Positions 5,224-41,515 of a DNA stretch of 43,090 nucleotides are shown here, piece after piece. Within the stretch, counting starts at the first letter, position 1, and each line of letters begins with the position of its first letter. The position numbers were made by a program, and so were the translations under genes. Below the pieces are notes generated by a model that saw nothing but the letters and a program-made list of their open reading frames with translations, ran no database searches and was not told the origin of the DNA. Location: positions 1-43,090 of IMG/VR virus record IMGVR_UViG_3300045286_000106; one strand, given 5' to 3'. The DNA comes from a virus.

Positions 5224-5592
5224 ATGGCCGTCTTGAATGAAAACACTTTCAGCGAGCGTCCGCGATTCGTCCTGACGCTCTTGAACGGCGCCACGATCAC
5301 CACGTCGTCGGACTGGCAGTGGGTGGGCGGCTTCCAGCCCGTCACGATCTCCGTCGAAGGCGACTACAACGGGAGCGTCATGTTCCTGGCGTCGCTCCGG
5401 CCGGGCGGTAGTGGGCCGTCCCCGACGGCGCCGACGGGCCCCGATGCCAACTATCCGACTCTGCTTCCCAACGGGACTGTGACCGGACCCCAGATGCTCA
5501 TGCTCCCGAACAGCGTCCAGTGGATCAAGGCCGTGGTCACGTTTGGCGGCGGTCCCTCGGGTGCCTGCTACGCCTATGCGTCGGTGGGCTAG
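5224..5592 (+). CDS. Small beta-rich virion-associated protein
   Basis: 122 residues, starting directly after the ATP-grasp stop. It is predicted mostly beta, with a TFSERPRFVLTLLNGATI strand region and a Gly/Pro-rich loop at 58-78, like compact decoration or fibre-attachment proteins. It has no signal peptide, unlike the four genes downstream. The next gene starts 17 bases inside its 3' end. Family not recognised; the virion role is inferred from position. Confidence 0.7.
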   Translation: MAVLNENTFSERPRFVLTLLNGATITTSSDWQWVGGFQPVTISVEGDYNGSVMFLASLRPGGSGPSPTAPTGPDANYPTLLPNGTVTGPQMLMLPNSVQWIKAVVTFGGGPSGACYAYASVG

Positions 5593-6745: not shown

Positions 6746-7320
6746 TGCGACGCCTTCTTCTTCTGCTCGCGGTCCCGACCCTGTCGTGGGCCTTCAGCAC
6801 GACCCAGATTCACTTGCCGTCGTTGCCGGGTGATGGGCCCCTCTTCCCCAAGGTCAACAAGCTCGTCTGTGCGCGCTGGACGTCGCCCTTCGACCTGCCG
6901 GGTGCCACCCGCATCACGGGGCAGATGAACTCCTCGCAGGGCGTCGACGCGACGGTCGTCCTCTATCCGGACAATGATGCGTCCGCGAAGCTCGTCTCGG
7001 GAACCACCTTCGTTGCCTTCGGGGCCGCCACCACCGCTATCACGGGTACGGGCGTCCCGTTCAACGTCGTGGCCGGGACGATGTATCGCCTGTGCGTCTG
7101 CGCCGACGGGGTGGGGGCGTTCGACGGCGTCAAGGACGTGAACGCGAGTCCCATGGACTTGGCGACATTCCTCAATGCGGGCGCGGCCGGAGTCATCATC
7201 GGGCAAGCGGCCAATGCCTGCACGGGCGGGGCGATTCCACCGGCCACGACGGGCGTCATCAGTGCCGGCACGGACATCAACGGGAACCCGCTGCAAGGGC
7301 CGGTGGGGGTGATCGAATGA
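6742..7320 (+). CDS. Exported CxC-domain protein, paralogue 2 of 3
   Basis: 192 residues from the ATG overlapping the previous stop; a second ATG follows directly. The N-terminus is a signal peptide (MMRRLLLLLAVPTLSWA). The mature part is one beta-rich domain with a Cys near the start (KLVCARW), a central TVVLYPDND strand, the YRLCVCADG motif and a C-terminal Cys-Thr-Gly-Gly segment followed by PPATTG. These match the C-terminal domain of the preceding protein and the whole of the next one. It lacks a Ser/Thr stalk. ATGA overlap with the next gene indicates coupled translation. Confidence 0.82.
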   Translation: MMRRLLLLLAVPTLSWAFSTTQIHLPSLPGDGPLFPKVNKLVCARWTSPFDLPGATRITGQMNSSQGVDATVVLYPDNDASAKLVSGTTFVAFGAATTAITGTGVPFNVVAGTMYRLCVCADGVGAFDGVKDVNASPMDLATFLNAGAAGVIIGQAANACTGGAIPPATTGVISAGTDINGNPLQGPVGVIE

Positions 7321-7895
7321 TCCGCCGCGTCCTCTTCTATCTCATCCTCCTGTCGTTCCCCGTCTTCGGCGCCACCAAGCAGATGATGCTGCCCCGCTAC
7401 TCGGCGCCGAAGGGGAGCCTCAACGTCGGCACGAACGACCGGCTCTACTGCGTCCGCACGCCGGCCACGCGCACCATGACCGCCACGAAACTCCTGGGCG
7501 GCTTCATGGTGGGCTCCTCGACGACGGTCGGGGTGGCGGTCTACGCGGATGGGACACCGGGTGGGGACAGCGGCGCCAAGCTGGGCGCGCTCTCGTCTGC
7601 CGTCACAGGCGACGCAGGCGCTGGCACGGTCGTCTCGGCCACGGGGCTGTCCATGGGCTTCACGACCGGCACGGTCATCCGGGTCTGCGTCTGCATCGCC
7701 AACGCCGCGAATGCCGCGCCGATCGTGCTGAATCCTGTGCAGTCGACGACCATGTATCCCATGCTGAACAGCGTGCTCGTCTACAACGGGTACGGGGCGA
7801 ACACCTGTACGAGCGGGGTCACGCCGGCCACGACGGGCTCCCTGAGCGCGGGCGACACGACGACGGTCGTCCCCCTCGTCTGGGTCGAGGACTAA
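7317..7895 (+). CDS. Exported CxC-domain protein, paralogue 3 of 3
   Basis: 192 residues, the same length as its upstream paralogue. Signal peptide MIRRVLFYLILLSFPVFG, then the same fold: LYCVRTP near the start, STTVGVAVYADG in the middle, IRVCVCIANAANAAP, and NTCTSG plus TPATTG near the end. The Asn-Ala-Ala-Asn piece is also in paralogue 1, so the two outer copies look closest. No enzyme motif is visible. Most likely a secreted or virion-surface binding subunit. Confidence 0.82.
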   Translation: MIRRVLFYLILLSFPVFGATKQMMLPRYSAPKGSLNVGTNDRLYCVRTPATRTMTATKLLGGFMVGSSTTVGVAVYADGTPGGDSGAKLGALSSAVTGDAGAGTVVSATGLSMGFTTGTVIRVCVCIANAANAAPIVLNPVQSTTMYPMLNSVLVYNGYGANTCTSGVTPATTGSLSAGDTTTVVPLVWVED

Positions 7896-7899: not shown

Positions 7900-10800
7900 G
7901 TGCGGGGCGCGCTCCTGCTGCTCCTCGTGGCCGGGGTCGCGTCCGCCCGACTCTGTCCTAACCCCGTCTGTACGCCGGGGACGAACACCTACCAGGAAGG
8001 CGCCACGCACTGCGGCAACCGCAACTGCGGCTTCACGACCCCCGACGTCTTCATCACCGATGCGGAACCCGATACCAACTTCGACGACCAGCAGCTCTCC
8101 GTCGGAGTCCGCCGCGCCTTCGCCAATCGCACGCTCATTCAGTTCAACCTGGGCGACATCGCGACCAACGCGACCGTCACGTCGGCCACCCTCCAACTGA
8201 ATGCGACCCCGCACGGGTTGCCCGTCCACAACGGCCATATCTGCCGGCTCCGGCAGGGGTTGTGGAGCGATTCCAGTGCGACGTGGAATAGGGCCCGCAG
8301 CGCGACCTTCTGGGGCACGCCTGGCGCGTCCAGCACCACGACGGACGTGGAGTCGCCGGGCACGGGCTTCACGACGTGCCCCGCGTACGCTGGCCCAAGT
8401 GTCCAGGGGCTCGTCAGTTGGGACGTGAGCGGACTCGCGCAGGATGCCATCACGAATCACGCGGGCATCCTCCGCATGCGGATCAAGCAGGACGACGAGA
8501 CGGGCACCTATTGGTGGGCCGCGGACGACGCGGAAACCGGCAACATCCGCCCGAAGCTGACGGTGGCGTTTGCTTGCACGACCTCCACAACGACAGTGCC
8601 GCCCCCAAGCACGACGAGCACGAGTGGCACGAATCCAACGACCAGCACCAGCACGACGACCTCGACCTCGACGACGTCCACGACGGGGATCTTCAACGAT
8701 CAGTATTGGATTGACGCGACGAACGGGATCGACACGCCGACGTGCGGCAAAGCCATCGGCACCCCGTGCAATACCTATTGGTACTGGGCCAACTCGGGCT
8801 GCTCACCGGCAGCCGGGTGTAAGAACGACGGCATTCCCCACACGGGCGGCGACACCATCCATCTCCGCAGCGGCATCTACCATGGTGACAGCAATCCGAC
8901 GCTCGCGGACCGGACCTACATCGCGATGCCCTGGGACGGGACAAGTGCCAAGCCGGTGACGATGGATTGCTATGATGGTCCTGGCCTGTGTGTCATCGAC
9001 ACGACGGGCATCACCGGGCTGTCGGGCGGCGCGGGTATGGTGGAAGTGGGTGGCGCCCTCAACTCCAAGTCTAATGCCGCGAACGCAGCCACCTACATCA
9101 CGGTGCGCGGCTTGGCGTTTGCTCCGGGCACCGGCTCGGGGGTCTCCTCGGCGCTCATCACGGTCAACGGGGCGGCCACCCATCACGTGCTCTTGGATCA
9201 GTTGACCGTCGATCCCACGACACTCGGTCACTTCGCCGGCTACACGATGCGCTTCGCGCCGTCCTCGTCGTACATCACCCTGAAGCATTCGACCGTGGGC
9301 GCCTCGAAAGCCCTCAACACGGGCGGGCCGTCGTTCAACACGGTGCCCAACATCGCCTTAGTGGGGAACGATCTCGGCAATTCCAACGGGACGGACAACA
9401 ACGATTGCCACAACCTGCTCTCGACCGTTGTGGGCCTGTCCGATGGGAACGAGTGTCATGACAACGGCGATGGCCTCGACTCCGGCGAGAACACCGACAC
9501 GCCACCCGAAGATCGCGTCATCATCCGTTACAACTACGTCCACGACATCACGGGTGACTCGGCCGGCTCCCGCTGCATTCCGCTCTCCGGTAATGGGTTC
9601 GATACCGGGCTCACCGGCATCAACAGCATCTACAAGAATGTGTGCGTGCAGACGCGGGATCTCGCCTTTCAGAGCGGCATCGAAAACTATGGTTCCGCGA
9701 TCAACACGGCCATCTGGTACAACACCGTCTTCCTCGCTGCGCCGAAGGAGCTATGGCTCTACGCCATCGGCGGCGGCAACAACAAACACATTCGCGGCCA
9801 GAATTGGCATCACAACATCCTATCAACGATCGCGACGACGGGCGATGTGGCGGCGCTCTACTTCGGTGGCGGCTCGACCGAAGCCTGTCCCGTGGGCGCC
9901 CCCTGCCCGTCCATCGGCAACCTCTTTTGGTCGCCGGAACATGGGTCATCGAATAACTGCCTCACGTGGCAGACGAGTGATCTTGGCACGTTCAGCTACA
10001 AGTGCGCGCAGCTCGCGACGACGTGGAACACCTTTGATGGGAACAGTCTGAATCTGAATGCCGACCCGGTCTGGACGAATCGGCCCGCTAGCGGCAAGGT
10101 CACGGGGCTCGGCGACATGGTGTTGCAGAACACGAGCCCCGCGATCAATCAGGGCTTGCCGTTCTGTACGGCGGTCGGGTCGGGCACGGGCGCCACGACG
10201 ATCAGCGTGACGTGCCAGGGGGCCGTCAACGATCCGCGCTATTGGTTCCCCGATCCCAACGACTACTACGGCCTGACCAATAGCGACTGCGTCGGCTATG
10301 GCGTGCGCGCTGTCGATGCGGCGGCCGGGGGCTGCTACGACATCCAGATCGAAGGCTGTGGCGTCCGCACGGTCACGAGTGAAACCAGCTCAACGATCAC
10401 CTTTACGCCGGCCTGCTCATGGAGCAACGGGGCCATGGTGCATGTGCCCTGGTCCGATACGGCGCCGGATCTCGGGGCTATCGAGTTTAACGGCGCGCCG
10501 GTCACGACGACCTCAACCAGCACGACCTCGACGTCCACGTCCACCTCGACGAGTACGAGCCTCCCCGGAGACGGCAACCCGATCGTCGTCGGGGCGACCG
10601 GCTCCCAGAGCACGACCTTCCTCCTCGGTCGCCAAGGCTCGACATCCAGCACCTATGCAAACGTCTGGTTCCTCACCAACAAAACCTACACCAAGGTGAG
10701 CGGCACCGTGTCCATTGATGCGGCGCCGACGAGCGGCCAGTGGGACGTGTCGCTCAACTACAACGAGGCGGCCATGGGCGCCTCCCAGACGTGTACGGGA

Positions 10801-12582
10801 CAGACCGGGCTCGTGAACGTCCCCCTGTGCTCCATCACGACGGGCAATACCTCGTGCGCCTTCTCGGTTGACTTGAGCGGGCTCCATGCCGGCATCGGCA
10901 TCCACAGCGGCAGTTGCTACCAACTCCAGTTCACGCCGACGAGCAGCCCGCCCGCGACGGGTGCTATCGTGGCGGCCATCGAAGCGACGGAGAGCACCAA
11001 CGAGGGCGTCTCGGTCTTCACCGGCAGCGATGCGACGAGCACGGCGGTGACGACGTATCTCGGCGTGACGGCACAGACAACGACAAGTGACCCGCGTGGC
11101 TACTTCAATCTGCCGACGGCCATCAAGGGCTGCTCCGGTGGTGTGGCGCTCAATACCGCCCCTGGCTCGGGCAAGTCGTGGAACGTGGTCCTCGACTACA
11201 GCACGGCAGCCAAGACGAACGCCCAAGACTGCGGCGATCTCACGTACACGTCGATCTCCGAAACGAGCATCGCGAACACAAACAAGTCGGGCATGTTCGC
11301 GGTCGACACCAGCTTCAGTGTGCCGGCCGGGGGTTGCATCCGTCTCCATGTGGATCCGGTGGGTAGTCCCGCCGCGACGGGCGGCGCGCAATGGGTGTTG
11401 GAATGCGGTGGCGATCCGGCTGCGGTGACCGATGGGGGGCCCGTCCTCTTCCTTGGGGATTCCAGCAACCAGACCGGCGCCCACTTCTACGGCGGTACGA
11501 TCTTGAACACCATCACGACGCAGCAGGGCGGCTATTACCTGACGGGCGATGGTGCCTATACAACATGCAGCGGCTCCTACGCCGCGCAAGCGGTGGGTTC
11601 GGGCTCCTCGACGCCGCGCTACGATGTGAGCCTCCGCGTGTCCAGCCCATTGTTGCCGACGCAATCCTGCACGACGGGCACCTTCACGCAGACGGGGACG
11701 CTCTGCTCGCAGAACATCGGCACGGACAAGTCGTGCAGCTTCACCAATGCATCGGTCGCCGTCCCCGCCCACGCCTGCGTGCAATTCGTCGCGACGCGCA
11801 ACGGCACCATCAGTAGCGGGACGAGTGGCGAGTCGTGGTCGATCACCTGTACGCGAGCCACTACGACAACCAGCACCACGGCGGCCAGCACGACCAGCAG
11901 CACCTCGACGACCAGCACCACGACCACGAGTACGAGCTCAAGCACGACGAGTACGACCAGCACATCGACGTCCACGACGACCACCACGGTCATCATCGAC
12001 AACTTCGAGCGTGCCAGTCTCGGGGCCAACTGGACGAACAGCGGCTTTGGCGCGGGGTCGACGTGCACCATCGTCGGCTCGTCCGACCTGTCCGCTACCG
12101 GCACGCCGATCGAAGAGTGCTACTGGAACGCCAACACGCCCCCGGTCCCAGGGTATGCGTGCGGCCAGCTTTCCGGGTCGGGCACCGCCGCCGACTTCTC
12201 GCCCACGGGCGTCTGTCTCGGGGCCGACAACGCCAGCGGCGGCAACGGGGCCTGCTGCGAGGTGATGTCCACGGGCGGCCCCTTCAAGTGGCAACTGACG
12301 GCCATTGCGAGCGGCACGGAGACGACACAAGAGACGGGCTCGGACACGTTCGTCGTCGGCAACTACGTCGGCATTCAGCGGACCAGCGCCACGGCCTTCC
12401 GGTGCTACCACTCCTCCAACGGCACGACGTGGACCGCCATGGGTGCGGGTGCCTCCATTAGTGCGCCCAACCCCGGGAACGCCGGCGCGGAAGCCTCCCC
12501 GACGGCGAATGCGTGGACGCTGGAAGTCTGGGAGGAGGGGGCCGGATCGCTGCCGACGGCGCGCGCCTGCGGCACACCATGA
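7900..12582 (+). CDS. Giant mosaic spike-like protein: DNRLRE/CBM96, beta-helix, triple beta-repeat, lectin-like domain
   Basis: 1560 residues from a GTG five bases after the previous stop. Signal peptide 1-17 (VRGALLLLLVAGVASA). About 25-225: a DNRLRE (CBM96-like) domain with the typical LIQFNLGDI strand and RPKLTVAF end. Ser/Thr linker 227-262. About 265-865: a Cys-containing right-handed beta-helix starting YWIDATNGIDTP, as in pectate-lyase-like polysaccharide-binding or degrading spikes. A short Ser/Thr linker at 868-888. About 890-1320: three tandem beta-sandwich repeats, each with paired Cys. Ser/Thr linker 1321-1363. About 1365-1560: a concanavalin/LamG-like domain starting VIIDNFERASLGANW. 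Likely role is glycan recognition or cleavage at the host surface; catalytic residues were not identified. Confidence 0.87.
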   Translation: MRGALLLLLVAGVASARLCPNPVCTPGTNTYQEGATHCGNRNCGFTTPDVFITDAEPDTNFDDQQLSVGVRRAFANRTLIQFNLGDIATNATVTSATLQLNATPHGLPVHNGHICRLRQGLWSDSSATWNRARSATFWGTPGASSTTTDVESPGTGFTTCPAYAGPSVQGLVSWDVSGLAQDAITNHAGILRMRIKQDDETGTYWWAADDAETGNIRPKLTVAFACTTSTTTVPPPSTTSTSGTNPTTSTSTTTSTSTTSTTGIFNDQYWIDATNGIDTPTCGKAIGTPCNTYWYWANSGCSPAAGCKNDGIPHTGGDTIHLRSGIYHGDSNPTLADRTYIAMPWDGTSAKPVTMDCYDGPGLCVIDTTGITGLSGGAGMVEVGGALNSKSNAANAATYITVRGLAFAPGTGSGVSSALITVNGAATHHVLLDQLTVDPTTLGHFAGYTMRFAPSSSYITLKHSTVGASKALNTGGPSFNTVPNIALVGNDLGNSNGTDNNDCHNLLSTVVGLSDGNECHDNGDGLDSGENTDTPPEDRVIIRYNYVHDITGDSAGSRCIPLSGNGFDTGLTGINSIYKNVCVQTRDLAFQSGIENYGSAINTAIWYNTVFLAAPKELWLYAIGGGNNKHIRGQNWHHNILSTIATTGDVAALYFGGGSTEACPVGAPCPSIGNLFWSPEHGSSNNCLTWQTSDLGTFSYKCAQLATTWNTFDGNSLNLNADPVWTNRPASGKVTGLGDMVLQNTSPAINQGLPFCTAVGSGTGATTISVTCQGAVNDPRYWFPDPNDYYGLTNSDCVGYGVRAVDAAAGGCYDIQIEGCGVRTVTSETSSTITFTPACSWSNGAMVHVPWSDTAPDLGAIEFNGAPVTTTSTSTTSTSTSTSTSTSLPGDGNPIVVGATGSQSTTFLLGRQGSTSSTYANVWFLTNKTYTKVSGTVSIDAAPTSGQWDVSLNYNEAAMGASQTCTGQTGLVNVPLCSITTGNTSCAFSVDLSGLHAGIGIHSGSCYQLQFTPTSSPPATGAIVAAIEATESTNEGVSVFTGSDATSTAVTTYLGVTAQTTTSDPRGYFNLPTAIKGCSGGVALNTAPGSGKSWNVVLDYSTAAKTNAQDCGDLTYTSISETSIANTNKSGMFAVDTSFSVPAGGCIRLHVDPVGSPAATGGAQWVLECGGDPAAVTDGGPVLFLGDSSNQTGAHFYGGTILNTITTQQGGYYLTGDGAYTTCSGSYAAQAVGSGSSTPRYDVSLRVSSPLLPTQSCTTGTFTQTGTLCSQNIGTDKSCSFTNASVAVPAHACVQFVATRNGTISSGTSGESWSITCTRATTTTSTTAASTTSSTSTTSTTTTSTSSSTTSTTSTSTSTTTTTVIIDNFERASLGANWTNSGFGAGSTCTIVGSSDLSATGTPIEECYWNANTPPVPGYACGQLSGSGTAADFSPTGVCLGADNASGGNGACCEVMSTGGPFKWQLTAIASGTETTQETGSDTFVVGNYVGIQRTSATAFRCYHSSNGTTWTAMGAGASISAPNPGNAGAEASPTANAWTLEVWEEGAGSLPTARACGTP
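8578..8685. repeat. Ser/Thr codon repeat (linker 1 of the mosaic protein)
   Basis: Linker between the DNRLRE and beta-helix modules of the 7900-12582 gene, built mainly from ACG, ACC, AGC, TCC and TCG codons with a few Val, Pro and Asn codons. Confidence 0.85.
11860..11988. repeat. Ser/Thr codon repeat (linker 3 of the mosaic protein)
   Basis: About 43 Ser/Thr codons joining the third beta-sandwich repeat to the lectin-like C-terminal module of the 7900-12582 gene; codon vocabulary as in the other stalks. Confidence 0.85.
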
Positions 12583-26240: not shown

Positions 26241-26381
26241 ATGCCCGCCGTCTCCGAGCGGCAACGGAAACTCATGGGGGCCGCGCTCGCCCGCAAGCGA
26301 GCCGGCCACCCCGCGAAGGGCGACCCCAAGATGAGCACCGCCAAGCTCCGCGACTTCGCGAAGAAACTCAAGAAAAAGTGA
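26241..26381 (+). CDS. DUF3008-like small basic protein
   Basis: 46 residues: MPAVSERQRKLMGAALARKR, then KMSTAKLRDFAKKLKKK. The arrangement matches a small phage family (DUF3008-like: Q-x-x-MGAALA-x-KRAG, later MS-x-x-x-LRDFA). Role unknown; basic, perhaps DNA-associated. GTGA overlap couples it to the terminase ATPase gene. Confidence 0.75.
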   Translation: MPAVSERQRKLMGAALARKRAGHPAKGDPKMSTAKLRDFAKKLKKK

Positions 26382-27094
26382 GACGCCCTCGACCGACCTT
26401 CGCCGAGCCGGCGACCGCCCCCGGCCAGGTCGACGGCCTCTCCCCCGCGGCGCTCCGCGCCACCGCCCGCTTGATGGGCGCGCAGCGCCACGCCGAAGCC
26501 GCGATCGCGACCGACCTCTGGGCCTTCTGCACCCGCTGCGTCCAGACCATCGACCCCGCTACGGGCGCCATCCGCCCCTTCCCGCAGTACGACTACCTCC
26601 ACGACCTCCTCCGCCAGTGGCAGTCCCATCCCCTCTTCCTGTGCGCGAAAAGCCGCCGCATGTTCGTCTCCTGGGCCATGATTGCGGCGCACTACTGGCT
26701 CGCCCGCACCACCCCCAACGCCAAGATCGTGATGATGGCCCGGAAGGAAGGTCGCAATGAAGCGGAAGGCTCGGCCGAGCTCGTCTGGCGCGCCAAGTTC
26801 ATTCACGATCACCTGCCGCCCTGGGTCGACCAGCGCCCCATTGAGTATCAGTTTTGCCGGCTCCGCTTCCCAGATACGCACTCTGAAATCCTCGGACTTG
26901 GGGAAGGGGCTGACCAGGCTCGTCAGCTCACTCTTACGGCTGTCTTCGGGGACGAAGTCGCCTTCTGGGACGACCCGCTCGCGACGTACATCGCGCTCCG
27001 CCCGACGATCGAAGGCGGCGGGCGCCTGACCCTCGTCAGTTCCGCCGCCCCCGGCTTCTTCGAGTCCATCGTTCACGACCGCCTGCCCGCCTAG
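26378..27094 (+). CDS. Terminase large subunit, ATPase half (separate gene)
   Basis: 238 residues from a GTG. N-terminal adaptor segment, then LCAKSRRMFVSWAMIAAHYW with a Walker A-like Lys-Ser, a KIVMMARKEGRNEAE strand-loop, and the Walker B LTLTAVFGDEVAFWDD. It ends just after the coupling motif LVSSAAPGFFESIVHD with a TAG at 27092. A standard large terminase would continue into a nuclease domain; that part is a distinct gene at 27818-28669. Both halves could assemble into the motor, or the split could be an inactivating rearrangement; the well-kept motifs favour function. Confidence 0.88.
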   Translation: MRRPRPTFAEPATAPGQVDGLSPAALRATARLMGAQRHAEAAIATDLWAFCTRCVQTIDPATGAIRPFPQYDYLHDLLRQWQSHPLFLCAKSRRMFVSWAMIAAHYWLARTTPNAKIVMMARKEGRNEAEGSAELVWRAKFIHDHLPPWVDQRPIEYQFCRLRFPDTHSEILGLGEGADQARQLTLTAVFGDEVAFWDDPLATYIALRPTIEGGGRLTLVSSAAPGFFESIVHDRLPA

Positions 27095-27130
27095 CCGCTA
27101 GACAGTCTGTCCGTCCGCATGCTAGGTGCG

Positions 27131-27146: not shown

Positions 27147-27147
27147 T

Positions 27148-27477: not shown

Positions 27478-27487
27478 GGAGTGACCC

Positions 27488-27811
27488 ATGGCCGTTGGCA
27501 CCATCGCAGTCTCCGCTGGCACCTTCACGACGCCGCCCACGACCCCCACCTCCGGCGATGGGACGACCATCGACGGCAAGATGACCACGGGCGGCCTGGT
27601 CGCCTCGACGGCCAACACCGCCGCCGGCACGGGCGACCTCGACTGCGTGCAGGGGCTCGCGTGGTCGGTCGGCGGGTTCGCCGAATACAACCAGTTCGTC
27701 GGCCTCGCCGCCGCCGCCTGGAGCTGCACGCCACAAGCGGCCAACCTCCGCATCATGGAGATCGGCCGCGCGTATCGCATGGCGGCGGTCCAGGTGCCCA
27801 CCGGGGGCTGA
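27488..27811 (+). CDS. Structural-type protein inserted between terminase halves (2)
   Basis: 107 residues, AAGGAG upstream. Thr/Gly-rich N-terminus (MAVGTIAVSAGTFTTPPTTP) and a compact C-terminal half with AWSVGGFAEYNQFVGLAAAA and two Cys. It resembles its upstream neighbour in size and composition, not clearly in sequence. Ends six bases before the nuclease half of the terminase. Confidence 0.73.
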   Translation: MAVGTIAVSAGTFTTPPTTPTSGDGTTIDGKMTTGGLVASTANTAAGTGDLDCVQGLAWSVGGFAEYNQFVGLAAAAWSCTPQAANLRIMEIGRAYRMAAVQVPTGG

Positions 27812-27817
27812 GCGCGG

Positions 27818-28669
27818 ATGCCGTCCACGACGGAAGACGCACCGGGCGTCCGGACGTGGACGAATCCGGTCAATCAATTCTTCGTCTATCGGCTGCACTA
27901 CACGGCCGACCCGGCGAAGCGCGATCCGGCGTGGCGTCTCAAGGCAAAGGCCGGGATGCCAGAGCGGGGGTGGCTCCGTGAGTACGAGATCAGTTTCGAG
28001 ACCCCCGAAGGCGAGCCCGTCTTCCCCGAGTTCCAGCCCGCGACAATGGTGCGACCGCTGCGGGTGCTCCCAGACGCTCGTCTCCTCCGCGGGTGGGACT
28101 TCGGGCACGTGTGTCCGGCCGTGGTCCTCGCACAGATGGACGCCTTCGGCCGACTCTGCATCCTCCGCGAAATCCTCCTCCCCCATTCCACTGTTCTTCA
28201 GTTGGCGTACGCCGTCCGCGTCGCCTCCACGACCCTGATGGGCAAGCCGGTCGACGGGTTCGACGCCGGCGATCCGGCCGGCGAAGCGTTTACCGATCTG
28301 GGTCAGGTCCGCACGACGCTCGCGGAGCAGGGGTTCACCTTGCAGACGCATCGGAGCCACAAGGAAAGCTACGAGGCCCTCCGCGCTCGACTGCTCCAGG
28401 ACGTCTACGTCCCCGGCGAAGGCAAGACGCCCGCGCTCCTGATCGACCCGTCCTGTTCCACGCTCATCGCGGCCATGTCCGGGGGCTTCTCGCTGTCCGC
28501 AAAACCGCCGTTCAAGCCCGTCGAGGTGCATCCCTACAAGGACGTCGTCGACGCCTTGCGCTACCTCCACACGAATCTGCTCGGCATCCAGTCCGATCAT
28601 CTTGTCGCCATGCACAAGGCCGCCCGTGTCGATTGGGCATGGGGCCAACCCGAAGGAGTGACCCCATGA
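27818..28669 (+). CDS. Terminase large subunit, nuclease half (separate gene)
   Basis: 283 residues from the ATG at 27818, with a weak GAGCG upstream. It starts in the interdomain region (VRTWTNPVNQFFVYRLHYTA) and continues with PERGWLREYEISF, the RuvC-like nuclease strand LLRGWDFGHVCPAVV (catalytic Asp), VDGFDAGDPAGEAF and YKDVVDALRYLHTN (last Asp). Together with the ATPase half it adds up to about 520 residues, the usual length of one terminase. It overlaps the next gene by four bases. Confidence 0.87.
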   Translation: MPSTTEDAPGVRTWTNPVNQFFVYRLHYTADPAKRDPAWRLKAKAGMPERGWLREYEISFETPEGEPVFPEFQPATMVRPLRVLPDARLLRGWDFGHVCPAVVLAQMDAFGRLCILREILLPHSTVLQLAYAVRVASTTLMGKPVDGFDAGDPAGEAFTDLGQVRTTLAEQGFTLQTHRSHKESYEALRARLLQDVYVPGEGKTPALLIDPSCSTLIAAMSGGFSLSAKPPFKPVEVHPYKDVVDALRYLHTNLLGIQSDHLVAMHKAARVDWAWGQPEGVTP

Positions 28670-29142
28670 CCCGAGTCCTACTGTTCGTCGCGGCCCTGCT
28701 CGTCGCCAGCACCGCAGGCGCCCAAACGACCACGACCTCCACGTCGACCTCGACGTCCACGTCGACGCTCGCCGCGGGCGCCTCGTGGGTTTGTACCATC
28801 GCCCACAAGTGGGTCGCGCCCGACCACTACGAAACGAGTGGCGCCTGCGTCGGCACGGGCGCGTATACGAACGGCGGCGGCGATGCACTCGGCTCGGCAG
28901 CCACCATGTCGGCCACCGCGCGGGCCCTCTGCGGTGATGGCACGTCCGTCCTCGTCAATCTCGTGACGACGCCGGCACCCACGAGCACGAATGCACCCAA
29001 CGCCGTCTGCGGCTTCAACTTCTCCACGTTCAAGTACGTCTGCTCGGTCGCGACGACGGCAGCGAACACCTCGCCACTGGCGGAAGCCAACTTCACGTCC
29101 GCCCCCATCACCCCGTTCAAGTTCCGGGCGATCTGCCGATGA
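28666..29142 (+). CDS. Exported protein with short Ser/Thr stalk and Cys-containing domain
   Basis: 158 residues. AAGGAG upstream of the ATG. Signal peptide MTRVLLFVAALLVASTAGAQ with cleavage after AGA or AGAQ, then a TTTTSTSTS-type stalk of about 15 residues, then a domain with WVCTIAHKW, SGACVGTG, ARALCGDG, AVCGFN, YVCSVA and a terminal AICR. Six Cys could form three disulphides outside the cytoplasm. First member of the second exported cluster; function unknown. Confidence 0.78.
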   Translation: MTRVLLFVAALLVASTAGAQTTTTSTSTSTSTSTLAAGASWVCTIAHKWVAPDHYETSGACVGTGAYTNGGGDALGSAATMSATARALCGDGTSVLVNLVTTPAPTSTNAPNAVCGFNFSTFKYVCSVATTAANTSPLAEANFTSAPITPFKFRAICR

Positions 29143-29576
29143 GGACGGTCTACCTCCTTGCCGCCCTCCTCGGGCTCGCGGTGGCGTCGTCGGTTCTCGC
29201 CACGACGACGACCACCACGAGTACTTCTACCACCCTCCAACTGCACTCGACGGCAGGCGTCCTCGCGACGGCGCAGACCGCCACCGGCCAAGGGACCGGC
29301 ATCGTCTGCGTCGGCGAAGGGGCCAAGACGCTCGTCATCGACCTGGTCGGGACCAGCTCGCCCTCCATGACGGTCATCCTGGAGCACTCCCAGGACACCG
29401 TGTCGTGGGCCACCATGACGACCGTCTGCTTCGCCCCCATGGATGCGGTGACGCTCTCGACGAACACGCCGTCCGTGTCGTGGTCGATCAACAATCCACC
29501 CATCGGGTGCTATCGGACGAACGTCAAGACCTACAGCGCGGGGACACTGGACGTGTCGTACCGCGCGGACCTGTGA
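29139..29576 (+). CDS. Exported small beta-rich protein
   Basis: 145 residues. Signal peptide MRTVYLLAALLGLAVASSVL and cleavage about SVLA, a short TTTTTTSTSTT stalk, then a beta-rich domain (VLATAQTATGQGTGIVCVGE, ILEHSQDTVSWATMTTVCFA, GCYRTN) similar to small phage fibre or decoration domains that start with an EHS-x-D-T-x-SW segment. ATGA overlap with the previous gene. Confidence 0.77.
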   Translation: MRTVYLLAALLGLAVASSVLATTTTTTSTSTTLQLHSTAGVLATAQTATGQGTGIVCVGEGAKTLVIDLVGTSSPSMTVILEHSQDTVSWATMTTVCFAPMDAVTLSTNTPSVSWSINNPPIGCYRTNVKTYSAGTLDVSYRADL

Positions 29577-29580
29577 ATGT

Positions 29581-30933
29581 GTGAGACGAGGACGCGGCCA
29601 CCGTCGCGGCACGGGGCTGCTCCTCGTGTGGTGGTTACTCGCGGCGCCGGCGTGGGCCCTCACCCCCACGCAGTGCCCGTGTGCGACCACCTCGACGACC
29701 TCAACCTCAACCTCGTCGTCCACGTCCACCAGCAGCAGCACCTCCACCTCGACCACGTCGACCTCCTCGTCGACCAGCACCAGCAGCTCCACCAGCACCA
29801 GCTCGTCGACCTCGACGTCCTCCAGCACGTCGTCGTCCACGACCTCGACCAGCAGCTCGACGTCGACGACTACGACGACGCATCTGGCGCCCGAGACCAC
29901 CTCGTCGAGCACCAGTTCCTCGACGTCGACCTCGACGAGCACGTCCTTGCAGCCCACGACATCGTCCACCTCCACGTCAACCAGCACGAGTACGTCGCTG
30001 GAGCCAACCACAACGTCGTCCTCGACCAGCACCTCGACCTCGACCTCGCTGCAACCGACCACGTCGTCGACGTCGTCCTCGACGAGCACCAGCACCTCGC
30101 TCGAACCGACGACCACATCCTCGTCGACCAGTTCTACATCAACGAGTACGTCGACGAGTCTGCCGTCCACGAGCAGCACCTCGACATCCACCTCGACCAC
30201 CACGACTACGACGAGCACATCGACCAGCATCCCAACAACGAGCAGCACGTCGACCTCGACGTCGACCAGCTCGACCTCCACGTCGAGCAGCACCTCCTCG
30301 TCCACCAGCACGTCGACCTCGACCACAACCAGCACGACGGTCATCAAGACCTATCAGGAAGGCGTGTCGGGGCCGGCCAATTCCGCGAATACCGACAACT
30401 ACATGGCGCAGGCGTCCGCCACGACGAACAACGGGACCGCCGTCACCGTCCGGGCCGGCAAGGCGTCCACCGGGTCGTCGGCACTGCGCTCCCTCTTCAC
30501 CTTCAACGTCTCAGACATCCCCGGCGGCGCGACGATCGTGTCGGCAACCCTCACGTTCCATGTGACGACCCGCACGGGCACGCCGGGGACGGGGACGATC
30601 AATCGCCTGCGTCGCACGGATTGGGACGAAGCCAATTCGACGTGGAACAACTACAAGACGTCGACCGCGTGGACGACGGCGGGCTGTGGCAGCACCGCGA
30701 CGGACTACGATACCTCGATCAGCGGCGGCACGCATGCGGCCCCGCCATCCAGTGGAACCTTTGACGTGACGGGCTTGGCGGCCATCGTCCAGGACGGACT
30801 GACGAACCACGCGGGGCTCGTCTATCTCGTGTGGCGGCTCGACACCGAGTCGAACACGACCAACATTCAGGTCGATAGTTCCGATGGCACGACGGCAGCC
30901 AACCGGCCGAAACTCGTGGTGGTCTACCACTGA
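29581..30933 (+). CDS. Exported long-stalk protein with C-terminal DNRLRE/CBM96-like domain
   Basis: 450 residues from a GTG five bases after the previous stop. A basic start, hydrophobic LLLVWWLLAAPAWA signal core, then LTPTQCPCATTSTTS: the PTQCPC motif is shared with the next protein. A 218-codon Ser/Thr stalk follows, with about 20-residue units marked by SLQPTT or SLEPTT. From about residue 255, a DNRLRE-type domain begins with KTYQEGVSGPANSANTDNYM, continues through SLFTFNVSDIPGG and ends NRPKLVVVYH. Such domains bind carbohydrate in CBM96 enzymes. A host- or biofilm-binding role is likely. Confidence 0.83.
   Translation: MRRGRGHRRGTGLLLVWWLLAAPAWALTPTQCPCATTSTTSTSTSSSTSTSSSTSTSTTSTSSSTSTSSSTSTSSSTSTSSSTSSSTTSTSSSTSTTTTTHLAPETTSSSTSSSTSTSTSTSLQPTTSSTSTSTSTSTSLEPTTTSSSTSTSTSTSLQPTTSSTSSSTSTSTSLEPTTTSSSTSSTSTSTSTSLPSTSSTSTSTSTTTTTTSTSTSIPTTSSTSTSTSTSSTSTSSSTSSSTSTSTSTTTSTTVIKTYQEGVSGPANSANTDNYMAQASATTNNGTAVTVRAGKASTGSSALRSLFTFNVSDIPGGATIVSATLTFHVTTRTGTPGTGTINRLRRTDWDEANSTWNNYKTSTAWTTAGCGSTATDYDTSISGGTHAAPPSSGTFDVTGLAAIVQDGLTNHAGLVYLVWRLDTESNTTNIQVDSSDGTTAANRPKLVVVYH
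29686..30339. repeat. Long Ser/Thr codon repeat (218 codons)
   Basis: The longest stalk in the genome. Built from ACG, ACC, AGC, TCG, TCC and related codons with SLQPTT/SLEPTT spacers about every 20 codons from roughly 29940 to 30170. None of the six reading frames meets many stops here, which creates large false frames on the opposite strand. Confidence 0.9.
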
Positions 30934-32438
30934 TGCGTCGCCTGCTCGTCAGCCTCGTGCTCTTGGCGGTAGCGCCGGCGTGGGCCTTGAATCCCACGCA
31001 GTGCCCGTGCGCCACGACGAGCACGACGTCCACGTCGACGAGTTCGTCGACATCTACCTCGTCCTCGACGTCGTCGTCGACCTCTACGAGTGCCTCCACG
31101 TCCTCGTCGACGAGCACGAGCACCTCGACGAGCAGCACGAGCACCTCCACCTCGACGTCGCTGGCGACGACCTCGTCGACGAGTAGTTCCACCTCCACCA
31201 GCACGACCTCGACGAGCACGTCCACTAGCACGACCACCTCGACGCTCGTCACCGTGCAAATCCTGTCGTTGGGTGGGACCACCGCGCAGTCGAACAGCTC
31301 GACCAACTATGCGCCGGTGAGCGGGACCGCGGGCGCCTGGACCTCAACGCAAGCCAACAATCAAGTCGTGGCGCCCACCGGCGGGAAACTCGGCAATCTT
31401 CGCGTCGTCGCAGCAGCCGACCCCGGAGGCAGTGCGTCCTGGGCCATCACGATCGAGCAAAACGGCACACCAAGTTCTCTCACCTGTACGATTAATGCTG
31501 GCAGCACCACCTGCCAGGATACGAACGGCGCCCACGACATCACCGTAAGTGCGGGAGACCGCTTCGACGTGAAGTCCGTGCCGACCAATACCCCGGCGGC
31601 TGGCGGCGTGCGGGTGTCCCTGCTCTGGAAACCGACGACAGCCAACGAGATGTGGTTCCCGATGACCACCCGGGGCACGATCAACACGACGGCCGCGTTC
31701 TTGGCACCGATGTCGGGCGACGGCACGAACACGAGCGATACGATCTCCGCACGGGTGGTCCTCCCCATCGCGGGAAGCGTGAAGAGCCTCTACACGTGGT
31801 GTTCTGCCAACGTCGGCGCCTCCGCGAGCCGAATCTTTACCGTCCAGAAGAACGGCAGTGCCACGGGGGGTATGACGTGTACGCAAGGGACCGGCACAGC
31901 CACGTGCAACGATACCAGCACGTCGCCCCTCAGCCTGGCCGTTGGGGATCAACTGAACATCGCGTATACGCTGACGGGGACGCCCGGCGCGGCTGGCTGC
32001 GGCGGTGGCCTCATCTTCGTGCCGACGACAAGCGGGCAGTTCGTGTGGATGCACGCCACCTCCGGGAACACCCCGACGACGGCCACCGATAAATTTGCGC
32101 CGCTCCAGAGTATCAACACCGCGTCGCCCACGACCGAAGACGCCTTGACCCAGCGGGCTGTCCAGGCGGCAACCGTCAAAACCATGTACGTCAAGATCAA
32201 CGCGGCCTTGGGTGCGGGCTCGCAGGTCGACTTCACGCTCAACAATGGCGCCGGGACGGCGACGGCACTCACTTGCTCGATCAGCGGCGGATCGGCCACG
32301 ACCTGCACGACGACAACCGACGTCACCGTAACCGACGATAATCTGCTGGATACCGTCATGCACCATAGTGGATCGACCGGCAGCGGCCAGAACGCGGAGA
32401 TCAGCTACGGTGCCGTCTTTACGGGGACGTTCCCATGA
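30933..32438 (+). CDS. Exported stalked protein with triple beta-sandwich repeat
   Basis: 501 residues. ATG overlaps the previous stop. Signal peptide MRRLLVSLVLLAVAPAWA, then LNPTQCPCATTSTTS nearly identical to the preceding protein, a 77-codon Ser/Thr stalk, and three beta repeats of about 125-130 residues starting near 105, 235 and 365. Each repeat has a SLTCTINAG- or MTCTQGTG-type strand with paired Cys (for example TTCQD, ATCND). The same repeat type occurs in the 1560-residue protein at 7900-12582. Probably a surface-binding fibre-like protein. Confidence 0.83.
   Translation: MRRLLVSLVLLAVAPAWALNPTQCPCATTSTTSTSTSSSTSTSSSTSSSTSTSASTSSSTSTSTSTSSTSTSTSTSLATTSSTSSSTSTSTTSTSTSTSTTTSTLVTVQILSLGGTTAQSNSSTNYAPVSGTAGAWTSTQANNQVVAPTGGKLGNLRVVAAADPGGSASWAITIEQNGTPSSLTCTINAGSTTCQDTNGAHDITVSAGDRFDVKSVPTNTPAAGGVRVSLLWKPTTANEMWFPMTTRGTINTTAAFLAPMSGDGTNTSDTISARVVLPIAGSVKSLYTWCSANVGASASRIFTVQKNGSATGGMTCTQGTGTATCNDTSTSPLSLAVGDQLNIAYTLTGTPGAAGCGGGLIFVPTTSGQFVWMHATSGNTPTTATDKFAPLQSINTASPTTEDALTQRAVQAATVKTMYVKINAALGAGSQVDFTLNNGAGTATALTCSISGGSATTCTTTTDVTVTDDNLLDTVMHHSGSTGSGQNAEISYGAVFTGTFP
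31014..31244. repeat. Ser/Thr codon repeat (77 codons)
   Basis: Stalk DNA of the 30933-32438 gene; same codon set as the 29686-30339 block, preceded in both genes by the conserved PTQCPCA segment. Confidence 0.9.
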
Positions 32439-34603
32439 GCACGCTCCTCCTCCATCCGAATCTCGCCGCCGACAAAGATTTGAAGTCCGAGTGCAAGGAC
32501 TTCGTCATTCCGCTCCTGAAAGACACGCGGCGGGACCGGCGCACCTATCGGGAGACGTGGCTCCGCTACTGGCGCATCTGGAGCGCCACGCGCGATCAGG
32601 AAGCCTATCAGGGGCGCGAGACGCTCTACTTCGCGAAGGGCCGGAAGATCATCGACAACTGGGTGCGGCGCCTGAAGCGCGACCTCTTCCCGGCCGACGA
32701 TTGGTTCGCCGTGCAGGCGTTGCGGCAGTCCTACGCCGAGCGCGAGTCGCCCACCTACGAGATCTTGAACTACTTTGCCCGCGGCGATGCGGGCGTGCGG
32801 CGCAATGCAAATGCGTGGCTCCGCCAGTTGGTCATGCTGGGCACGTCGCCCGTCAAGATCATCTGGCAGCAGGAGGAGGAGAGTCTCTCGGTCCTTCGGG
32901 AGATTCTCGATCCCGACGGGAATCCGACGCGGAAGGTGGAGCGGACGGAGGAGTTGGTGGTGCGGAACCTGGGCCCCACCTTCCGCCCCGTCGATCTGTT
33001 CTCATGGTACGTAAACCCGGTCACGGTCCGCGATCCCGAAGACGCGACCCTCTCGTTCGAGGATCTGCTCATCCCCCGCGGGCGCGTCGATGCACGCGCC
33101 GAGCAGTGGATCAGCACGAAGGACCACGACCTCGGCACCGTCTACGACAAGCAGGCCGTGGACGAGATCGACGAACGGATGGAGGGCGGCGGGTACACGG
33201 AGCGCACCCAAGAGAAGTGGGACGCCGAGCGCCGCCGACTGGCCGACAAGGGGTTTACGAATCGCATCGACGCCAAGACGCCCGTCAAGTACCGGCCCAT
33301 CGACATCACGCAAGCCATCTGGAAGCGGGTCGATGGGAAGACGGGCGTGACCGAACGCTACCTCGTCGACGTCGCCCTCGACGACATCATCTGCCGCATC
33401 CAAAAGCTCCCGTGGCAGCATGGGATGCCGCACATGCTGGCGGGGAAATTCGTGGAAGTGGTGTCGGAGTTCTACGGGCGCGGCCTGCCCGAAATCTTCG
33501 ACCGCATGCAGTACAGCCTGAACGACATCGGCAATCAGGCGTTGGACGCGCTCACCTACGCCGTCAACCCGATCACCGTCGTCGACCTCTACCAAGTCCA
33601 AGACCCGACATCCCTCCGCTTCCGGCCGGGGGCCAAGTGGCTGGCGGCGCCGGGCAGCGTCAAGAACTTCGAGATGAGTCCCGAGCCTGCCGTCGTCGGA
33701 CTCAACGCCGTGGGCACCCTCATGCAGGTCATGGGCGATCTTGCGGACGTGGTGCCGGTGGGTGGGGCGGGGGCCAAGGCGCGGGGGCGGGGCACGCAGT
33801 CCTCGGCGGGCATGCAACTGGCGATCAGCGAGGCGCAGGTCGACGTCCGGGACGTCGTCGAGTCCATCGAGGATCAGGTGATGAATCCGTGGTTGGAGCG
33901 GGCGCACTCGCTGACCGTCCAGTACCTCGAAGAGCCCCTCATTCTGCGGATTGCCGGCCGGGACGGGCAGCGGTTCGTCGAGCAGAAGATCGACCGCTTG
34001 GACCTCTTGGGGGACTTCCGCTTCACCTGGCAGGGCTCGGCGGCGCAGATGAACCAGCAGATCAAAAGCCAGCAGATGATTCAGGCGCTCCAGATCGCCG
34101 GCCAGATTCCGCCCGAAGCCCTGCAAGCCGAAGGGAAGCGGATCAGCTTCGCGACCCTCCTGACCGACATCTACTCGAAAGGCCTCCAGCTCCCCAACGC
34201 CAAGCAGATCGTCCAGGACATCCACCCCAAGGAAGGGACCGACCCGTCCCTCGAAAACGACCTCTTCCGGGTGGGTCGCGGCAAGGAAGTCATCGTCTCC
34301 GAAGCGGACGACGATGCCCAGCATCTCCAGATGCACACGCGGCTGGCGCAGCAGTCGGTCGAAGCAGACGTGCCGGCGGCCGACGCGACCCTCCTCGTGG
34401 CGCACATCCGCCAGCATCAGGCGGCGACGATGGCGAAGAAGATCATGGCGCAGCAGCAGCAACAGCAACAGGCCATGCAGGCGATGCAGGGGGGCCCTCA
34501 GGGCGGCAACGGAGCGCAGGGGCCGACCCAGAATCCGGGGCGTCCCCCGTCCACCGGGAACGTCTCGGACCTCATGCGGTCGGCGCCGCGTGGGCAAGGT
34601 TGA
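32435..34603 (+). CDS. Portal protein (P22-like)
   Basis: 722 residues, close to the 725 of P22 gp1. N-terminal region RRDRRTYRETWLRYWRIWSA then RRLKRDLFPADDWFAVQALR is typical of podovirus portals. A central stem/wing region (YSLNDIGNQALDALTYAVNP) and the long helical barrel end (Gln-rich MAQQQQQQQAMQAMQ) follow. The dodecamer sits at one capsid vertex and passes DNA during packaging and ejection. ATGA-coupled to the stalk gene; followed by scaffold and capsid genes. Confidence 0.9.
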   Translation: MSTLLLHPNLAADKDLKSECKDFVIPLLKDTRRDRRTYRETWLRYWRIWSATRDQEAYQGRETLYFAKGRKIIDNWVRRLKRDLFPADDWFAVQALRQSYAERESPTYEILNYFARGDAGVRRNANAWLRQLVMLGTSPVKIIWQQEEESLSVLREILDPDGNPTRKVERTEELVVRNLGPTFRPVDLFSWYVNPVTVRDPEDATLSFEDLLIPRGRVDARAEQWISTKDHDLGTVYDKQAVDEIDERMEGGGYTERTQEKWDAERRRLADKGFTNRIDAKTPVKYRPIDITQAIWKRVDGKTGVTERYLVDVALDDIICRIQKLPWQHGMPHMLAGKFVEVVSEFYGRGLPEIFDRMQYSLNDIGNQALDALTYAVNPITVVDLYQVQDPTSLRFRPGAKWLAAPGSVKNFEMSPEPAVVGLNAVGTLMQVMGDLADVVPVGGAGAKARGRGTQSSAGMQLAISEAQVDVRDVVESIEDQVMNPWLERAHSLTVQYLEEPLILRIAGRDGQRFVEQKIDRLDLLGDFRFTWQGSAAQMNQQIKSQQMIQALQIAGQIPPEALQAEGKRISFATLLTDIYSKGLQLPNAKQIVQDIHPKEGTDPSLENDLFRVGRGKEVIVSEADDDAQHLQMHTRLAQQSVEADVPAADATLLVAHIRQHQAATMAKKIMAQQQQQQQAMQAMQGGPQGGNGAQGPTQNPGRPPSTGNVSDLMRSAPRGQG

Positions 34604-35842: not shown

Positions 35843-37183
35843 ATGGCAGCCAATTCCGGCGACGTCTTCACGAGTAGCGCAGCCCTCACGGCCGATACCG
35901 TCCCCCTGCTCATCAAGGAGAAGCTGCTCTCGATCGCCGAGAAGCAGACGGTCTTCTACGAGTTGGCCGACAAGGAGAACCTTCCCGAGAACAACGGGAA
36001 GACGGTCCAGTTCACGCGCTACGAGCGCCTCAACCTGCCGACCACGACCATCACGGAAGGCACGCCGCCCGCCTCGCAGGCGTTGACGACCTCCGTCGTC
36101 CAGGCCATCGTCGATCAGTGGGGCGCCACCGTCGCCATCACGGACGTGGCCCAACTGACGGTCAAGCATCCGGTCCTCCGGGTGGCGCAGGATCGGCTGG
36201 GCACGCAGCACTCGGAGACGATCGACCGGGAGATCATGCGGACCCTCCTCGGAGGTTCCAACGTCTCCTACCCGTCGCCGCGGACGTCGCGCTCGGCCCT
36301 CCAGGCGGGCGACTACCCGACGACCGACCTCATCCGGACGCTCGTCTCGACGCTCCGCTCGCAAGGCGCCATGACCTACGAGGGCCAGGACTACGCCGGC
36401 GTCCTCGACCCCTTTCACGAGATGGACTTCACGAAGGACGCGACGTTCGTGCAGGCGGCCAGCTACTCGAACATCACGGCCCTCTTCGTGAACGAGATCG
36501 GCAAGTGGATGGGGGTCCGCTGGAAGCGCTCGAACCTCCTCCCCATCTACGCGAGTCTCGCCACGACCGGGTGGACCTTCGCGGCCAACACGACGGCGAT
36601 CAGCGCGACCAACTACGGGGCCGGCGCCGTCCAGTTCGCGGCCTCCTCGACCGTCCGCGTCAAGGTCACGAAGCTGAACACGCAGACCGGCTTCGAGACG
36701 TCCATCATGGCCGAGCAGGCCGTGACGAACGGCTCAGCCTTCGGCGTGGACATCACGACCCCGACCGCCACGGGCGTCTTCAACATCTACGTCTCGCTGG
36801 AGTCGGGCGCCGCGGGCACCGCGACCTTCCAGCTTCAGGTGACCAACCCGACCGGGCTCGTGTACGGGTTCGTCAAGGCCGGTGCCGCCAACGCGGCCAC
36901 AACCACGCAGACGGGCCTGGCGCTGAATGCCAAGGGCACCGGGGCCGTCGAGCCGCCGGACACCAGCACGGCCGGCAACGTCCACATCGGCTGGGTGTTC
37001 GGCAAGGAAGCGTTCGGCGTCGTCGATCTCGCCGGTCTCCAGACGTTCCTGACCCCGCAGACGGCGAACCAGGCCGACCCGTTGGCCCAGCTCCGCTACG
37101 TCGGCTGGAAGCAGATGTTCAAGGCGGTCATCAAGAACACGCAGTTCTTCACCCGCTTCGAGGCGCTGTCGGCGTTCAACTGA
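35843..37183 (+). CDS. Major capsid protein, N4-gp56 family, with inserted domain
   Basis: 446 residues; GGAAGG precedes the ATG. N-terminal LTADTVPLLIKEKLLSIAEK, then ENNGKTVQFTRYERL and TPPASQALTTSVVQAIVDQW are typical of N4-gp56-type HK97-fold capsid proteins. The core appears to end at RWKRSNLLPIY (about 236) and resume at NVHIGWVFGKEAFGVVDL (about 377). The 140 residues between are beta-rich and Ig-like (VRVKVTKLNTQTGFETSIM) and are likely displayed on the capsid surface. ATG of the next gene overlaps its stop. Confidence 0.9.
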   Translation: MAANSGDVFTSSAALTADTVPLLIKEKLLSIAEKQTVFYELADKENLPENNGKTVQFTRYERLNLPTTTITEGTPPASQALTTSVVQAIVDQWGATVAITDVAQLTVKHPVLRVAQDRLGTQHSETIDREIMRTLLGGSNVSYPSPRTSRSALQAGDYPTTDLIRTLVSTLRSQGAMTYEGQDYAGVLDPFHEMDFTKDATFVQAASYSNITALFVNEIGKWMGVRWKRSNLLPIYASLATTGWTFAANTTAISATNYGAGAVQFAASSTVRVKVTKLNTQTGFETSIMAEQAVTNGSAFGVDITTPTATGVFNIYVSLESGAAGTATFQLQVTNPTGLVYGFVKAGAANAATTTQTGLALNAKGTGAVEPPDTSTAGNVHIGWVFGKEAFGVVDLAGLQTFLTPQTANQADPLAQLRYVGWKQMFKAVIKNTQFFTRFEALSAFN

Positions 37184-40834: not shown

Positions 40835-41515
40835 ATGTCGACCATCAGCCGTCCGATCAAGTCTAGTTCCGGCACCACGGAATACATCCCGAACACGCTC
40901 ATCGACGCCACGGAAGTCGATGCCGACTTCGACCTCATCTACGGCGACTATGACGGGAACATCGACTCGACGAACATCCGTGCCGGGTCGATCACCTACG
41001 ACCGCCTGCTCCTGACGACGCCGAATGCGAACAGCATCATCGCCTTAGCGTCACCGGGCTTGGCGGTCCACGGCGCCATTACCGCCGCGTGTACCACGGG
41101 ATTGAACTTCAACGTCGCCACGACGCTCGTCTCGGTAGGCCCGCTGACCACGCTCGGCGGCACGGTCCTGGTCTCCGGCCTGTGCGGGCTCCAATGGGTG
41201 CTCCCGCCCTTCGTCGGCCCGTCGACGGCAACCATCGGGTTCGCGTGGCAGCGGGATGGCTTGCCGATCGGGGGCGGCGTGCGGGTCCAGTACGAGCTCG
41301 ACCCGCAGCCGATGTCCCCCAGCATCGGGACGGGCATCCTGCCGATCCCGACGCCGCCGCTCGTGGACATCGGCACGGGGAATGGGGGGACGTGCGCGCC
41401 GGGTGCCCATACGTGGACGCTCATCGCGGAACTGCCGATCGTCACCTTAAACCCCGGATCGCTCGTCACGTCGTCCGCGAACGCGGGATTCTACACCGCC
41501 GTGGAATTGCGCTAG
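40835..41515 (+). CDS. Tail fibre-like protein
   Basis: 226 residues starting directly after the hub gene. The N-terminus SSSGTTEYIPNTLIDATEVD then ADFDLIYGDYDGNIDSTNIR is a common attachment segment of phage fibre or spike proteins. The rest is a beta-rich domain with Gly/Pro loops and several Cys (ACTTGLNF, SGLCGL, GTCAPG). It lacks a long shaft, so it may be a short fibre or an adaptor for the exported or stalked proteins. Confidence 0.77.
   Translation: MSTISRPIKSSSGTTEYIPNTLIDATEVDADFDLIYGDYDGNIDSTNIRAGSITYDRLLLTTPNANSIIALASPGLAVHGAITAACTTGLNFNVATTLVSVGPLTTLGGTVLVSGLCGLQWVLPPFVGPSTATIGFAWQRDGLPIGGGVRVQYELDPQPMSPSIGTGILPIPTPPLVDIGTGNGGTCAPGAHTWTLIAELPIVTLNPGSLVTSSANAGFYTAVELR

Follow-up and report, generated by a model that had tools for sequence, protein, structure and literature searches.

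It is assumed of tailed phages that their particles come together entirely within the cytoplasm, and of phage adhesins that they function as components of the virion. Ordinary tail fibres have no signal peptide, and their assembly is cytoplasmic. Decoration adhesins of the Hoc/Ig-like type place weak glycan-binding domains in virion modules; they are synthesized in the cytoplasm and have no signal peptide, disulfides or stalks. Bor is an exported phage lipoprotein. PblA and PblB of Streptococcus mitis phage SM1 are tail proteins that double as bacterial-surface adhesins, reach the outside by phage holin/lysin-dependent release and bind choline (PMC7600539). Lom of phage lambda is a signal-peptide protein that is encoded among the tail genes and forms an outer-membrane beta-barrel (PMC12309495).

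We examined a single linear IMG/VR metagenomic virus record of 43,090 bases (the window), in which a first-pass annotation had pointed to eight late genes starting with Sec-type signal peptides and had known of no described phage system of this kind. Our search of the open-access literature, which was not a full one, found no description of Sec-exported phage fibre or lectin sets either. We consider it likely that the eight genes constitute a late phage module of Sec-exported adhesins. At the level of sequence, the predicted export of a dedicated fibre/lectin module is well supported by signal peptides with signal-peptidase-I sites, fibre- or lectin-type domains in several window proteins and in relatives, mostly even cysteine counts across the clade, stalks, and fixed positions in many relatives.

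Eight predicted signal peptides in a late operon

The late operon lies on the + strand, as do all genes described below, and comprises the two halves of the large terminase (TerL), the portal, scaffold-like genes, the major capsid gene and a fibre-like gene. The TerL ATPase half (26378..27094; phrog_2 terminase large subunit, E 2e-4) and nuclease half (27818..28669), which corresponds to the C-terminal half of the uninterrupted TerL of MW202637 (E 3e-20), precede cluster 2 of the exported genes, the nuclease half directly. The portal gene (32435..34603; phrog_332, 1.7e-14; phrog_1216, 2.2e-9) follows cluster 2 directly. The major capsid protein (35843..37183) was assigned by operon position and homology, with 45-55% identity to homologues in the same place in L028-L031. 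Genes 37855 and 38621 we take, by position and our own reading, to be adaptor- and nozzle-like, and a SEVN-type fibre-like protein (40835..41515), which in the window has no signal peptide, comes after the nozzle-like gene. Towards the left end of the record come genes for internal virion-like proteins (475-3683) and then cluster 1 (5224-12582), with holin-like genes and a gene for a cell wall hydrolase (12680-13696; PF07486, 6e-13) just downstream, so that cluster 1 stands between internal virion-like genes and lysis genes. Cluster 1 is headed, in the tail-fibre position, by a small protein with no signal peptide (5224..5592), a similar counterpart of which stands ahead of an exported gene in a relative (L034:2371).

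Several other features of the operon were recorded. The ATPase and nuclease parts of the large terminase are encoded by two separate genes (26378-28669), between which lie two small ones (27148, 27488). Nuclease-half genes also occur in relatives (L034:7329-8273, L035:1749-2621, L138:1448-2317, L139:2418-3287), where other genes precede them, an HNH-like one in G002, and the nuclease half aligns to the C-terminal half of uninterrupted terminases in named relatives. RNA families or introns as the cause of the split found no support, there being no Rfam match. A GNAT-type acetyltransferase gene is kept within the virion operon (41525-42082 in the window; L029:9249; L030:14266), and an ATP-grasp-like ORF with a weak GARS_C match (3928-5223) lies between virion genes and the exported cluster.

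The eight ORFs, four in cluster 1 (5576-6745 to 7900-12582) and four in cluster 2 (28666-29142 to 30933-32438), are all open and co-directional, with most neighbours overlapping or abutting as in an operon. For signal peptides we used a scorer of our own, not SignalP, with a cut-off of 7. On its calibration sample, 50 kb of E. coli K-12 DNA, the scorer flagged 6/6 exported proteins (scores of 7.3 or more) and 0/35 others (maximum 6.5). All eight window proteins scored as carrying Sec/signal-peptidase-I signals with a predicted cleavage site (7.2-9.3), bearing out the claim made at first pass. The signal peptides are 16-26 residues long, with an N-terminal Arg, a hydrophobic core and an AxA-type cleavage site; in every case the charged n-region, core and AxA site fall within the pattern of Sec/SPase-I export, in which the site lies at 16-30 residues. 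Examples are MTRVLLFVAALLVASTAGA cleaved before QTT (28666), MRRLLVSLVLLAVAPAWA cleaved before LNP and MRGALLLLLVAGVASA cleaved before RLC. With the first 44 residues shuffled, each protein's own score was reached in 0-2 of 300 trials, and a uniform scan of the window returned only these eight and one small candidate at 14196.

No LPxTG, no lipobox at the scored cleavage sites and no clear C-terminal anchor was seen in the eight proteins. Most mature parts contain no strong hydrophobic anchor; 7317 has one segment with a mean hydropathy of 1.84. Outer-membrane anchoring of the Lom/Bor type, by lipobox or beta-barrel, was not recognized in the eight, barrels being judged without formal prediction. 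Any surface display would therefore take place without a recognisable anchor.

Stalks, shared parts and domains of the putatively exported proteins

Counting as a Ser/Thr stalk any stretch with at least 14 of 20 residues S/T, we found stalks in 5576 (164-235), 7900 (three), 28666 (13-41), 29581 (28-260) and 30933 (21-112), a shorter S/T run in 29139, and none in 6742 and 7317. The earlier count of stalks or linkers in six of the eight is right on a lenient reading, as five long and one short. Stalk codons are mixed synonymous ones (ACC/ACG, TCG/TCC/AGC) and the other frames encode other sequence; thus the S/T pattern is held at the protein level.

In cluster 2, the first protein (28666..29142; signal peptide score 9.2), after the TerL nuclease gene, joins a short stalk to a domain with six mature cysteines. 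By eye it resembles exported ORFs just upstream of the portal in L061, L067 and L097; a leave-one-out profile did not recover this kinship at a significant level. The second (29139..29576; 8.26) consists of a signal peptide, the short T/S run and a beta-sandwich, whose AF2 model (pLDDT 78) matches the fold of small phage proteins (E 8e-6). It shares 23-35% identity with 17 rows of an exported family found in relatives (family B, below), to whose genes it is similar in position. In a leave-one-out B profile it reached only E 0.09, yet was the best match at its place in the window, and it is likely a divergent member of the family. The third (29581..30933; 7.68) carries a stalk of ~230 residues and a C-terminal DNRLRE/disaggregatase-repeat-like domain (PF06848, E 5e-7), and the fourth (30933..32438; 9.26) a stalk of ~90 residues and three C1q/TNF-like jelly-roll repeats with Cys pairs. 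The fourth matches the tail fibre family phrog_7049 (E 3.4e-5). Its second repeat, modelled with AF2 from five aligned sequences (pLDDT 69), is similar in fold to collagen-linked heads and phage tail fibres and weakly matches C1q domains in the PDB (E 6e-4).

In cluster 1, 5576..6745 (7.77) encodes a 25-Cys region, a stalk and a C-terminal beta domain; its analogue in G002, a Cys-rich T-stalk protein with a signal peptide, is similarly placed after a similar small gene (L034:2703). The next two proteins (6742..7320, 7.17; 7317..7895, 7.54) are each a signal peptide and a beta domain, which were aligned with the C-terminal domain of 5576 as putatively related. The last (7900..12582; 8.36) has 1560 aa and 49 Cys, with a DNRLRE-like domain (PF06848, E 5e-4), beta-helix-like and beta-sandwich regions and three ST linkers; the right-handed beta-helix look is a reading by eye. 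A PDB sequence search with its middle region and with the C-terminal domain of 29581 gave no useful match. Homology indicates tail-fibre character for 30933, and position does so for cluster 1; this does not extend to all eight. No enzyme signature or catalytic family was found in the exported proteins.

The first-pass annotation had also described shared parts: a common start, stalks, and DNRLRE or beta-repeat ends. The mature start LxPTQCPCATTSTTSTS is indeed common to 29581 and 30933, and the three repeats of 30933 were recovered; the DNRLRE position was described wrongly for 7900, since the domain is N-terminal there, though C-terminal in 29581. The PF06848 matches (30.0 bits in 29581, 20.3 bits in 7900) are below the Pfam gathering cut-off of 33.9 bits and denote domain resemblance only. 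As a search tag, the PTQCPCA start gave 20 viral-contig matches, all of them chance reading frames.

Recurrence of putatively exported adhesion modules in related phages

Relatives were gathered by capsid and portal alignments (13 and 79 viral loci), their portals mostly 33-43% identical to that of the window. No cultured member was found among them, and for named relatives the portal pointed only to three uncultured Caudoviricetes and distant Microcystis and Pelagibacter phages. Follow-up of the suggestion that related metagenomic phages be searched for the same modular set showed that late ORFs with signal peptides and adhesion modules recur. A uniform scan found 65 such ORFs with coding support in 63 core loci (0.96 per 10 kb) vs 3 in 28 distant loci (0.09); these figures are approximate, since the 65 include a handful of internal capsid-gene pieces or tiny membrane proteins (e.g. 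L030:8125) and the scan missed several likely true ORFs (e.g. L029:8404, L063:6654). The ORFs adjoin or precede the portal gene, intervene between it and the capsid gene, or occupy the tail-fibre position: 22 are up to 6 kb upstream of the portal, 26 after it and 6 further upstream. Their median Cys count is 6, the count is even in 51/65, and 22/65 have Ser/Thr-rich stalks. In two loci (L064:6467-7621, L101:1389-2570) there is an extra signal-peptide protein upstream of the portal that has the look of an outer-membrane barrel and almost no Cys.

The exported ORFs of relatives contain LamG lectins, collagen, C1q/TNF-like heads, DNRLRE and Cys-repeats. Laminin_G_3 domains with a C-terminal Cys cluster (E 3e-8 to 9e-28) occur in 13 loci, 11 of them with a strong signal peptide and two with weak signal-peptide-like starts by eye. 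In L058, L080, L084, L093, L096 and L139, all of them relatives and not the window, the PF13385 cut-off of 27.6 bits is passed (34-98 bits). Collagen repeats are present in L080 and L139 (E 3e-8, 2e-7), Myxococcus-type DUF4215 repeats in L045 (E 2e-11), a possible DUF4082 below cut-off in L083, and T-stalk proteins in L034, L035 and L054-L058. The collagen-like signal-peptide protein of L139 is followed by a holin and an endolysin-like gene.

Ten loci supplied an alignment of an exported 'stalk-only' protein of 60-80 residues, which bears a CGPAxxxCGPA motif and adjoins the exported beta-sandwich B protein. Its profile matches 29/54 B-carrying loci, a number that low-complexity stalks may inflate. 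In L139:6383-7342 the motif reads YGPAxxxYGPA, the pattern surviving without its cysteines. Family B occurs in ~50 contigs; a scan with the window protein placed first confirmed none and, reordered, gave 49 loci, and independent counts are somewhat lower because some loci are two copies of one contig. A conserved signal-peptide-like segment is present in 52/54 members. In at least 17 B proteins an in-frame basic tail precedes the hydrophobic segment, so that B may in these be membrane-anchored and not cleaved. The basic tail of L074 is a 59-residue phage family, phrog_20603 (E 3e-16). Behind phrog_20603-type proteins the B domain is fused in frame at L074:10804-11349, L096:2017-2577 and L063:6110-6670, with the hydrophobic segment and an AxA site between.

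A signal peptide has also been placed on a fibre-like protein. In the SEVN family, 15/18 members start directly at the conserved N-terminal domain and three (L029, L037, L039) have a leading signal peptide; those of L037 and L039 may be one shared gain. The hydrophobic leader of L029 ends exactly where its cytoplasmic homologue in L030 starts (EA/GLVSRPTK vs M-GLVTRPSK), the scorer putting its best cleavage site five residues earlier, and L029 has gained Cys residues (GLVSRPTKTC vs M-GLVTRPSKTG). Thus, an export signal can be added to an otherwise unchanged phage protein.

Possible destinations of the putatively exported proteins and comparison with known systems

From these features we infer translocation, disulfide formation, glycan binding and a destination. 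Late in infection, the host Sec machinery would carry the proteins over the inner membrane, and signal peptide removal and disulfide formation would take place in the periplasm. The stalks would stay extended, perhaps glycosylated. Anchorless proteins would remain soluble in the periplasm, or be secreted, until lysis frees them with the virions, after which their stalked heads, trimeric or of the lectin type, would engage glycans on surfaces. Given the absence of anchors and a probable diderm host, the simplest course would be maturation in the periplasm followed by release together with the virions. A diderm host is suggested by the short signal peptides and the Myxococcus-type DUF4215 repeats. 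The sole cellular-genome match came from a Chloroflexi MAG, in a contig of 4.3 kb; a search for the LamG module, run without a positive control, found it neither in this MAG nor in 151 genomes of the same phylum. No match to the 30933 repeats, DNRLRE domain, LamG domain or B family was found in 50,697 records of named phages, nor to the LamG domain in plasmids.

We tentatively read the module as a second, extracytoplasmic set of adhesive fibres that would be Sec-routed, disulfide-matured on Ser/Thr stalks and attached, beyond the cytoplasm, either to particles or to the cell surface; some of the assembly of the virion or of the infection surface would then take place on the far side of the inner membrane. 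The three functions that the first-pass annotation had proposed are not separable by sequence; its export, Cys pairing and mix-and-match build are supported and recur in dozens of relatives. Among destinations, we rank virion attachment ahead of free adhesins, decoys or matrix-acting proteins, and these ahead of a coat on the living cell. That at least the fibre-position proteins attach to progeny virions at or after lysis is our favoured destination, held with less than even confidence: most of the proteins have no conserved virion-docking domain after the signal peptide, and we know of no precedent for virion parts assembled from exported proteins.

The same missing docking part fits a free existence as secreted adhesins, decoys or matrix-acting proteins that are set free no later than lysis and never join virions, a reading that we regard as possible if doubtful. 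Such proteins would perhaps occupy receptors on debris and neighbouring cells, or loosen the host matrix so that progeny spread. A soluble, anchorless, stalked lectin/CBM-like architecture suits this, as do the position of cluster 1 just upstream of the holin-like genes and cell wall hydrolase, and that of the collagen-like protein ahead of the lysis genes in L139. However, no catalytic family was detected, the genes are embedded within the head/tail operon, and the exported form in L029 retains the whole fibre-like protein.

Coating of the infected cell or lysogen, whether to exclude superinfection or, by lysogenic conversion, to confer a new adhesive surface, seems unlikely. PblA/PblB, as tail proteins serving as surface adhesins (PMC7600539), and Lom, as a signal-peptide protein encoded among tail genes (PMC12309495), are precedents. 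A tyrosine integrase was found in 6/6 tested B-carrying relatives (G157, G158, G160, G161, G162, G166), so a lysogenic stage is likely there and lysogenic conversion is possible in that subgroup; the integrase flanks held no recognisable host genes, only one tRNA-Pro. Against such a coat, no tyrosine integrase was found in the window or in 5/5 tested relatives outside the B group, and no serine recombinase in any of the twelve; furthermore, the window's eight genes lie inside the late operon and their products have no anchor or lipobox.

Domains and positions are those of fibres, and in some B proteins a long basic tail precedes the hydrophobic segment, as would be expected of ordinary cytoplasmic virion fibres in which the segment is a membrane-interacting or assembly element. 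We consider this improbable. The predicted signal peptides argue against cytoplasmic assembly of the eight, with their AxA sites, short Arg-containing n-regions and Cys-rich mature parts of mostly even Cys count, and the segment is absent from most SEVN-family homologues. An artefact, through a chimeric assembly or the joining of host genes to phage sequence, would suit a single linear metagenomic record with host-like modules (LamG, DUF4215, T-stalks) but is contradicted, and hardly credible, because exported genes of like kind are found in corresponding positions in dozens of contigs that were assembled independently.

If the reading as an exported adhesive set is true, its presence within the virion operons of a large uncultivated soil clade would break one of two assumptions about phages: either virions acquire components once lysis has occurred, or the phage alters the exterior of its host in the course of infection. 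The set would also be a potential source of disulfide-stabilised, stalked lectins.

Compared with known systems, the building blocks are familiar ones of fibres and lectins; what is new is the predicted Sec routing and the recurring multi-gene form. The fold of the 30933 repeats is that of C1q/TNF or collagen-linked tail-fibre heads, and the repeats match phage tail-fibre proteins. Ordinary fibres have no signal peptide, whereas the fibre-type proteins of the window do. With Hoc/Ig-like adhesins the set shares glycan-binding-type domains encoded in virion modules, and differs from them by its signal peptides, Cys and stalks. Lom and Bor likewise have phage-encoded export signals, lom among tail genes, but each is a single outer-membrane beta-barrel or lipoprotein in lysogens, whereas the window encodes a multi-gene, apparently soluble lectin/fibre-type set in a late operon. 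PblA and PblB are also phage tail-type adhesins; they are exported without a signal peptide, via lysis, whereas each window protein has its own Sec signal peptide, and the set has Cys modules and Ser/Thr stalks. The window set is thus unlike both of its nearest systems, PblA/PblB being released by lysis proteins without a signal peptide and Lom being a beta-barrel.
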